Virus record (IMG/VR): IMGVR_UViG_3300042485_001450
Coordinates: 1 to 27,147 of that record
Strand: one strand, 5' to 3'
Length of the DNA stretch: 27,147 bases
DNA from: a virus
A program made the position numbers and the translations under genes. The notes under the pieces were generated by a model, which was not told where the DNA came from, made no database searches, and saw only the letters and a list, made by a program, of their open reading frames with translations. Each line of letters opens with the position of its first letter. Position 1 is the stretch's first letter. Shown here piece by piece: positions 3,366-23,033 of the stretch.

Positions 3366-4154
3366 CTAACTTGGTTGAGATGGGTTCGTGATTCTCCCTA
3401 GGTAAGGATCATAGTTCATTAGTTCGTCAATCTTCATATCAGAACCTTGAGTCTCCCAGAACTTTAGTAGACCATCGTGACTCTGGCGATGAAAAACATC
3501 AATATGTTCCGGATGTATGCTAGACCCCAACTCAATCTTATAAAGAAACAAAGGAATCGAAAAAGTATTACCGGAGTTATAAATCAAATCATCCGCCACT
3601 GCTCTTGGTTTAACTCCTTGATCCAACTTATACTTATCATCCCGACAATGAAGGTCAATGAGTTTCTTTGCGTGATGACGAGTAATCATATAGGCAGCAG
3701 TTGAGAAGTCGTTCACAAACCTCTTATGAAGTTTTACATGTAAATCTCCGGTACAGATAATCGCAAGTTGAACCACATCATAATCATAAGGAACCTTTGA
3801 TGCAAAATCCACCCAAGAAAAATCCCAGAATCTTGCCGTCTGTAAATCTACATCATCCTCCATAATAATAGCATAAGAACTATCAGAAGTCTCATACCAG
3901 TGTTTGATTGCCTTGAGATGAGAAGTAGTGCATCCAATTTCACCCGTCGTCATATTATCAGGATAACGACCTTTAATGATATCACTTAAATCATCTTCAC
4001 GACCATCATAGGCAGAGATACGAGTATAGTTTTCTATGTCCCAATACTTAAACTGCTCTTCCATATATTCCTTTCTTTCCGGTTGCCCATCAAGATTTAA
4101 ATAATATATTGGACCCATATTTTTGAGTTTATATGCTGATTTATTTTTATCCAT
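3366..4154 (-). CDS. Glycosyltransferase family 25-like (262 aa)
   Basis: Three GT25 (LPS biosynthesis) landmarks are visible: YYLNLDGQPERK near residue 17, GEIGCTTSHLKAIKHW near 72, and IIMEDDVDL near 95 containing the acidic nucleotide-sugar/metal site. Members transfer galactose or glucose to LPS or protein acceptors. It is the last gene of the glycan island, 2 nt after the GT6 gene. The donor sugar cannot be read from sequence. There is no clear terminator after it; the hli promoter lies in the 80 nt that follow. Confidence 0.85.
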   Translation of the reverse strand: MDKNKSAYKLKNMGPIYYLNLDGQPERKEYMEEQFKYWDIENYTRISAYDGREDDLSDIIKGRYPDNMTTGEIGCTTSHLKAIKHWYETSDSSYAIIMEDDVDLQTARFWDFSWVDFASKVPYDYDVVQLAIICTGDLHVKLHKRFVNDFSTAAYMITRHHAKKLIDLHCRDDKYKLDQGVKPRAVADDLIYNSGNTFSIPLFLYKIELGSSIHPEHIDVFHRQSHDGLLKFWETQGSDMKIDELMNYDPYLGRITNPSQPS

Positions 4155-22124: not shown

Positions 22125-22153
22125 ATATTACACCAGTTTTGGAATAGTGTCAA
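22125..22153 (-). promoter_or_regulatory. Promoter of tRNA-Asn and tRNA-Thr
   Basis: TTGACA (22148-22153) overlaps the stop codon of the HNH gene; TAATAT (22125-22130) lies 17 nt downstream on the minus strand. The -10 matches consensus at four of six positions. Confidence 0.65.
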
Positions 22154-22620
22154 GTCCAGAGATTATGATCATATTCCCAATGGCAGTTAGGGCACAGGGG
22201 CATTATATTTTCTTTCGAGTTTATGACACTAACCATAATATCTTCACTAAAAGAAGATATTGGTTTGATATGAGCAATTTCTATATGTTTATTATATCCA
22301 CATTTAATGCATTCGGTAAAACCAAGTTTTTTAGCAAAAGCTCTTGCTCGTGTTCTAACCAATGCAAAAGCGGAAGACTTATGATGTTTTTCATATATTG
22401 CTTCTTTAAGTGTCATATCTTTTACTTCTCTATCCTTTAACCACAACAAATAGTGTTCTTTACAACGAGAGCGATTTGCTGTTATGGGAGTTCCACAATC
22501 AATACACTTATGTTCTGGTTTTCTTTTTGGTGCTATTTTATTATTATATGAAGCAGCACAACTTCTCCCACAAAACTTTGGATTTTTTGTTTCTTCTTTA
22601 CAGAATAAACATTTATTCAT
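22150..22620 (-). CDS. HNH homing endonuclease with zinc knuckles (156 aa)
   Basis: Three Cys pairs in the N-terminal half (CLFCKEE, CGRSC and CIDCG) look like zinc fingers for DNA binding. The C-terminal half carries ECIKCGYNKHIEIAHIKPIS and NIMPLCPNCHWEYDHN, a zinc-stabilised HNH nuclease with the catalytic His in IAHIKP. It sits immediately downstream of the intron-split tRNA-Arg, and a hairpin with a late promoter in its loop lies between them. It may promote spread of this locus, perhaps with the ORF-less intron. Confidence 0.9.
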   Translation of the reverse strand: MNKCLFCKEETKNPKFCGRSCAASYNNKIAPKRKPEHKCIDCGTPITANRSRCKEHYLLWLKDREVKDMTLKEAIYEKHHKSSAFALVRTRARAFAKKLGFTECIKCGYNKHIEIAHIKPISSFSEDIMVSVINSKENIMPLCPNCHWEYDHNLWT

Positions 22621-22624
22621 AATG

Positions 22625-22663
22625 GAACCTTTTAGTTATTATTATTTATAATACCTAAGGTTC
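22625..22663 (-). promoter_or_regulatory. Hairpin with TATAAATA in its loop, upstream of the HNH gene
   Basis: On the minus strand GAACCTTAG (22655-22663) pairs with CTAAAAGGTTC (22625-22635), allowing a 2-nt bulge. The loop holds an exact late promoter (22643-22650). The right arm contains AAAAGG, the likely ribosome binding site of the HNH gene, so read-through RNA would mask it and late RNA would not. Confidence 0.72.
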
Positions 22664-22668
22664 AAAAA

Positions 22669-22945
22669 CATCTCAGGCTGGACTCGAACCAGCGACCGAC
22701 TGCTTAGCTTACCACTACGAATTTCTTCGCCATCTCTGTTTGTGGTCTGGACTTTCTCTTTACCATATCCCAAAAGGACTTAGGCACTTCCCGTAAAGTC
22801 TCTACACCTTCATCTTACGATGCTTGGCTCGGGATTGCCATTTTAAAGGGTTCCCCGAATTTGAGAAGTTACATTCATAAAGTTTCCTTTATGACGCTCC
22901 ATTTATGTTTAAGGCAGTTGCTCTATCCAACTGAGCTACTGAGAC
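22669..22945 (-). tRNA. tRNA-Arg (UCU) interrupted by a group I intron
   Basis: The minus strand carries a 35-nt 5' exon (22911-22945) and a 39-nt 3' exon (22669-22707). Joined, they form a 74-nt tRNA: acceptor GTCTCAG/CTGAGAT with one G-U pair, discriminator G, D arm GCTC-AGTTGGATA-GAGC with A20 (an Arg identity base), anticodon stem ACTGC/GCAGT, loop CTTCTAA (anticodon UCU), 5-nt variable loop, T arm GCTGG-TTCGAGT-CCAGC. The break falls between U34 and C35. Other splice registers would give Leu or Ile anticodons but break the group I rules. It reads AGA, a frequent codon in AT-rich phage genes. Confidence 0.88.
22708..22910 (-). mobile_element. Group I intron (203 nt, no ORF) in tRNA-Arg
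   Basis: The 5' exon ends in U and the intron ends in G, as required. Core elements are visible in order on the minus strand: P2 TCATAAAG-GAAA-CTTTATGA; P3 ACTTC with GAAGT; P4 TCGGG with CCCGA (Q element AATCCCGAGCC); P6a CATC-GTAA-GATG; R element GTGTAGAGACT and S element AAAGTCC giving P7 GACT/AGTC; P9 region ACCAC/GTGGT with CGAA-GAAA-TTCG inside. The guide GAG near the 5' end can pair with exon CUU, including the U-G at the splice site. This fits the small IC3-type introns of bacterial tRNAs. Self-splicing is inferred. Confidence 0.87.
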
Positions 22946-23033
22946 ATAAGGAACCTCCCTGTTTGTGCATCGTTGAGAGGCATGGGAGGTGTGGGATTTA
23001 TAAGAAGTTTGGACCTCCTCCACCCGTGAAACT

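Follow-up and report, generated by a model that had tools for sequence, protein, structure and literature searches.

The window analysed here, 27,147 bases long, spans the whole of an IMG/VR virus record and, like the records of its relatives, is a genome fragment. It comes from a cyanomyovirus, the nearest isolate at the DNA level being the freshwater Synechococcus phage S-SRM01. Without introns, ARAGORN called tRNAs for Pro, Gly, Thr and Asn in the window and missed an Arg gene, which its intron mode recovered at c[22668,22946] as a tRNA-Arg(tct) whose loop is interrupted between positions 34 and 35 by a 203-nt intron. The tRNA runs on the minus strand from G1 to G73 (22945..22669), and the split between U34 and C35 described in an earlier note on this DNA proved exact to the base. 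The joined exons form a 74-mer that folds as a canonical tRNA-Arg(UCU) with no intron allowed, and they are identical over the 71 nt compared to the uninterrupted tRNA-Arg genes of three other loci (L134, L164 and L228); the otherwise complete tRNA seen in that note stands. The identity of the gene, Arg(UCU), rests on the spliced fold with its UCU anticodon and on the uninterrupted counterparts. The features of the locus are collected in Table 1.

Table 1. Features at the split tRNA-Arg(UCU) gene, in window coordinates.
Feature	Position	Strand	Basis or remark
abiF RNA motif, 7 nt upstream of the tRNA	22953..22989	-	RF03085, 53.8 bits (gathering 37)
5' exon of tRNA-Arg(UCU), positions 1-34, last base U34	22911..22945	-	ARAGORN and spliced fold
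ORF-less group I intron, 203 nt	22708..22910	-	Rfam RF00028, 63.2 bits; covariation
Internal guide GGAG	22897..22900	-	P1: GAG with CUU of the exon; P10: first G with C35
P3, 5' strand	22863..22869	-	Partner 22786-22792; compensatory changes in 4/7 pairs
P7, 5' strand	22796..22800	-	Partner 22750-22754; crosses P3 (pseudoknot); invariant in 15 sequences
P3, 3' strand	22786..22792	-	Covariation
P7, 3' strand	22750..22754	-	Alignment of 15 sequences
Terminal (omega) G of the intron	22708..22708	-	Invariant in all 15 rows
3' exon of tRNA-Arg(UCU), C35 to G73	22669..22707	-	ARAGORN and spliced fold
Spacer between tRNA and HNH gene, 48 nt; spacing conserved in relatives	22621..22668	-	
Free-standing HNH endonuclease gene, 156 aa, proposed homing partner	22150..22620	-	Pfam HNH_2 (E 8.1e-8) and HNH (1.5e-4); PHROG HNH families

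The Rfam model RF00028 (Intron_gpI) was covered in full by a match at 22921..22726 that lies above the gathering cut-off (63.2 against 50 bits; E 4.9e-14), and the related introns scored 59.8-74.1 bits against the same model. No ORF of at least 60 aa overlaps the intron. A structure was drawn by hand from an alignment of fifteen sequences. Fourteen are distinct phage tRNA-Arg(UCU) introns, the window's among them, and the fifteenth interrupts a tRNA-Leu(UAA) gene in an uncultured phage of 735 kb. The 98.8% of cells that are paired in this structure are weak evidence by themselves because the structure was drawn from these same sequences, which does not hold for the compensatory changes: two-sided changes occur at 23 of the 51 pairs, compared with 5.2 in shuffled alignments, none of 500 of which reached that number, and with 1 to 8 after sliding of the partners. 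P1 consists solely of CUU:GAG, with a U34.G wobble at the 5' splice site that is invariant (15/15), and P10 forms between the base preceding GAG and the nucleotide that opens the 3' exon. Being invariant, P7 speaks neither for nor against the structure by covariation. GNRA loops close P2 (GAAA), P6a (GUAA) and P9a (GAAA), and L2 and L9a are compatible with subgroup IC3. Of the elements drawn by eye in the earlier note, the helices P2, P3, P4, P6a, P7 and P9, the GNRA-type loops on three helices, and an exon ending in U with an intron ending in G reappear here, where P1, P10, P2 to P8, P9 and P9a could be drawn with support from covariation; its statements on group I type, ORF-less state, insertion point and cyanophage setting hold likewise. 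It is virtually certain that a group I intron interrupts a tRNA gene here, and from its structure the intron is predicted to splice.

That reading of the locus was incomplete in a respect that bears on the movement of the intron, since it lacked the HNH gene that begins just downstream of the tRNA. Residues C104, C107, H117, N138, C143, C146 and H147 of the encoded protein are invariant in 26 sequences. Its AlphaFold model is confident (pLDDT 90.9, pTM 0.60); the best fold match in the PDB, an HNH nicking enzyme, is weak (E 0.16), and a sequence search of solved structures returned nothing useful. Four further homing-type endonuclease genes, three HNH and one SegE-like GIY-YIG, lie on the minus strand of the window (2819-2439, 16441-15935, 25145-24549 and 25825-25388).

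Scanning IMG/VR for the 3' splice junction yielded 40 contigs, in 35 of which ARAGORN found tRNA-Arg(UCU) with an intron after U34, making 36 loci with the window. Many of these contigs are near copies, and the counts are not numbers of independent events; a single group of cyanophages accounts for most of the intron-bearing loci. The intron measures 201-209 nt in 30 loci and 599-648 nt in six, and four distinct long introns (L013/L020, L014, L016 and L041) encode an HNH protein inside, of the HNH_3 type in L041. Contigs L006, L007, L011 and L040, which matched the junction pattern and gave no intron call, were left out; L039 seems to contain the end of an intron, with the 5' exon beyond the limits of the locus. 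A 31st short-intron locus, L073, was found through its HNH gene. In it, the same intron and HNH gene go with a tRNA-Arg of unrelated scaffold, whose anticodon stem is GCATC/GATGT, and this speaks for movement from one tRNA gene to another.

Empty alleles of this tRNA gene occur in related phages. The uninterrupted tRNA-Arg gene is present in dozens of cyanophages among the phage records searched by blastn, and in S-SRM01, where the tRNAs come in the same order, tRNA-Arg is uninterrupted and there is no space for the HNH gene; the site is found both with and without the insertion in other cyanophages, as the earlier note had proposed to look for. Eight intron-bearing records, 37-117 kb long and all incomplete, showed no second intact tRNA-Arg(UCU) gene. 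Bacterial genomes contributed 77 loci with the same 3' junction pattern, 36 of which ARAGORN called as tRNA-Arg(UCU) with an intron, indicating that group I introns have long used this site. A host-derived intron was considered and rejected, no cyanobacterium being named in the titles of the 77 bacterial records, although a scan that demands the exact pattern does not prove absence.

The HNH gene accompanies 26 of the 30 short-intron loci, or 27 of 31, window included, once L073 is added. Among the 26, the gene is complete in 23, where it starts 44-49 nt after the tRNA, and is cut only by the contig end in three. L028/L033 carry a short intron with an internally deleted HNH copy, and L023 has lost the gene. 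In L029, which belongs to an unrelated phage, the tRNA gene with the short intron has a different, unrelated predicted endonuclease 72 nt downstream. Furthermore, a scan for HNH relatives returned 76 loci. For 40 of the 50 near full-length relatives, the nearest tRNA within 65 nt was Arg(UCU), with the intron in 25 and without it in 15, compared with a share of about 15% for Arg(UCU) among the tRNAs of these loci; HNH remnants likewise abut tRNA-Arg(UCU) in 23 of 26 loci. The relatives adjoin this tRNA upstream or downstream, in differing gene orders and beside scaffolds with different stems, including intronless tRNA-Arg(UCU) genes of unrelated sequence. On the tree of HNH proteins only two changes of the intron label are forced, and support is too low to order intron gain and loss. 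In L071/L072, the tRNA-Arg carries at the same anticodon site a 46-nt insert that is partly like a piece of another tRNA; the HNH gene is kept, about 160 nt downstream.

In collaborative homing, a free-standing nuclease targets the site of an intron, the intron protects its carrier and repair carries both (PMC6083498, PMC10448857). The locus has the arrangement expected of such a system, an ORF-less intron with an adjacent free-standing endonuclease gene. Related phages, S-SRM01 among them, have neither element, and the HNH gene lay near 0/120 of the intronless tRNA-Arg(UCU) genes of the window's anticodon-stem type, CTGCCTT/CTAAGCAG, among the matches listed, a sample mostly of other phages that therefore speaks for association, not cause. 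We favour, with a probability of roughly 0.6 for the whole mechanism, the reading that intron and HNH gene are a mobile pair that spreads by collaborative homing at tRNA-Arg(UCU). It builds on the structure of the intron, its linkage to the HNH gene, the distribution of both, the empty alleles, the decay states and the presence in unrelated tRNA scaffolds. The exon-end CUU would pair with the guide GAG and C35 with the preceding G, and the intron would excise itself using guanosine and leave a normal tRNA. In a co-infecting phage whose tRNA-Arg(UCU) gene is uninterrupted, the HNH enzyme would cleave that gene at the insertion site or close to it. Repair off the intron-bearing genome would then transfer intron, exons and HNH gene as a unit, and the intron would keep the genome that carries it safe from cleavage. 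Counting against the pair, the intron persists in L023 and L028/L033, which have no intact HNH gene, and the relatives beside intronless tRNA-Arg(UCU) genes indicate that HNH can live without the intron; the many near-copy contigs and the two intron-label changes that are all the HNH tree forces weigh on the same side.

The best-placed competitor, which we nonetheless hold to be unlikely, is that the intron is a passive vertical passenger, that the HNH gene is one of the usual free-standing homing genes in phage tRNA clusters, with its cut elsewhere, and that the two are neighbours by descent only. Several other homing-type genes are present in the window and its relatives, a minority of the HNH relatives lie near other tRNAs (Gln, Thr, Met and Ala), and a single cyanophage group supplies most intron-bearing loci, all of which would suit mere co-inheritance. 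Such descent fits poorly, however, with an HNH gene that tracks tRNA-Arg(UCU) across gene orders, on both sides of the tRNA and in unrelated scaffolds, with the same intron on the unrelated scaffold of L073, and with the unrelated phage L029, whose intron of the same type also has an adjacent endonuclease. A different history, which we regard as doubtful, is that the HNH lineage has specialised in the anticodon loop of tRNA-Arg(UCU), in any scaffold, began as an intronless homing gene and later recruited a group I intron as an immunity element; if so, these phages would preserve steps of the assembly, decay and replacement of the pair.

AGA makes up 49% of the Arg codons in 29 window ORFs. The earlier note had suggested that AGA decoding in infected cells might depend on a ribozyme; the host presumably has its own tRNA-Arg(UCU), and hence this dependence does not follow from the codon share. 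Splicing of group I introns in tRNAs is usually constitutive and no regulatory element was found, which makes it improbable that splicing acts as a switch, whether guanosine or infection state sets the level of mature tRNA-Arg(UCU) or the intron keeps host anticodon nucleases away from the precursor's anticodon loop until infection is late. What speaks for such a switch is that the anticodon is split, so that only the spliced tRNA could be cut or used, and that phages use tRNAs against tRNA-cutting defences (PMC13096335). A dead tRNA gene, with an intron that splices no longer and AGA decoded by the host, is highly improbable: the presumed host tRNA would permit it and the 46-nt insert of L071/L072 indicates that broken versions exist, but compensatory changes accompany the conservation of the core helices, the guide, the terminal G and both exons, the window uses AGA as its main Arg codon and the spliced tRNA is canonical.

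The mobile pair that we favour has its closest parallel in psbA of cyanophage S-PM2, also a phage gene with a group I intron and an adjacent free-standing nuclease, F-CphI (PMC6083498), and in both cases related phages are without intron and nuclease. In psbA the target is a protein gene and the nuclease of the Endo VII type, whereas here the target is a tRNA gene, the nuclease is of the HNH_2 type and its cleavage is predicted. Bacterial tRNA-Arg(UCU) genes of Beggiatoa and Thiomargarita are split by group I introns at the same site after U34 (PMC4853749), as are those of Exiguobacterium, Lysinibacillus and others in our junction scan with ARAGORN; the present intron differs from these in being phage-borne and in having an adjacent free-standing HNH gene. 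Known tRNA introns at 34/35 are often ORF-less, as here. The nearest tRNA relative found is about 75% identical and occupies the same position 34/35 in another tRNA, the tRNA-Leu(UAA) of the 735-kb phage, where P10 is U:A35 instead of the G:C35 of the Arg introns. That tRNA-Leu(UAA), in uncultured phage LR756501 (L003:2979-3183), is likewise split after U34. T4 SegB, an enzyme of the GIY-YIG type and not HNH, is comparable to the HNH protein in its proposed role, since it too is a free-standing homing enzyme by which a tRNA region of a phage spreads, in its case without an intron. This spread is credited to Brok-Volchanskaya 2008 by way of its citation in PMC10448857.

A 2014 review placed all phage group I introns then known in protein genes, despite the many tRNA genes of phages (PMC3984707), and we found no later phage tRNA intron in the open-licence literature. 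The earlier note knew of no such intron in a cyanophage tRNA-Arg(UCU); this stands after our search of the same literature and of 50,697 phage records, in which blastn detected no tRNA-Arg intron. Group I introns in tRNA genes, bacterial tRNA-Arg(UCU) included, are already known; as far as we found, a phage family with a conserved nuclease neighbour is new, and collaborative homing, known for cyanophage psbA, has no precedent at a tRNA gene. The origin of collaborative homing was called unclear in 2023, with turnover of the intron's own nuclease suggested (PMC10448857). At one tRNA gene, we observe the empty state, nuclease only, nuclease plus intron, intron plus nuclease remnant and intron alone, with the nuclease inside a longer intron in other phages; such a full series makes that origin directly testable.

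The abiF RNA motif is also found just upstream of tRNA-Arg(UCU) in L005, L008, L009, L064, L073 and L109, with differing tRNA scaffolds, and its pattern occurs in 33 loci, some of them overlapping records. An abiF RNA in a cyanophage has been reported for S-CREM1 (PMC9964418). The RNA could be an antitoxin decoy against host AbiF, and a further, doubtful reading is that abiF RNA, tRNA-Arg, intron and HNH gene would move as one anti-defence cassette. Elsewhere, a PhotoRC-II RNA motif lies near the window end (281-182, minus strand, 70.5 bits), and a tmRNA match to the permuted and cyano_tmRNA models sits within a phage tRNA cluster (L073:3491-3740). In the capsid region of phage Deep1-GF2-KM23-C739, where the capsid gene is annotated as separate pieces, we noted two group I introns (L004:2946-3126 and 3655-3835), and pelagiphage HTVC120P has a similar unannotated stretch.
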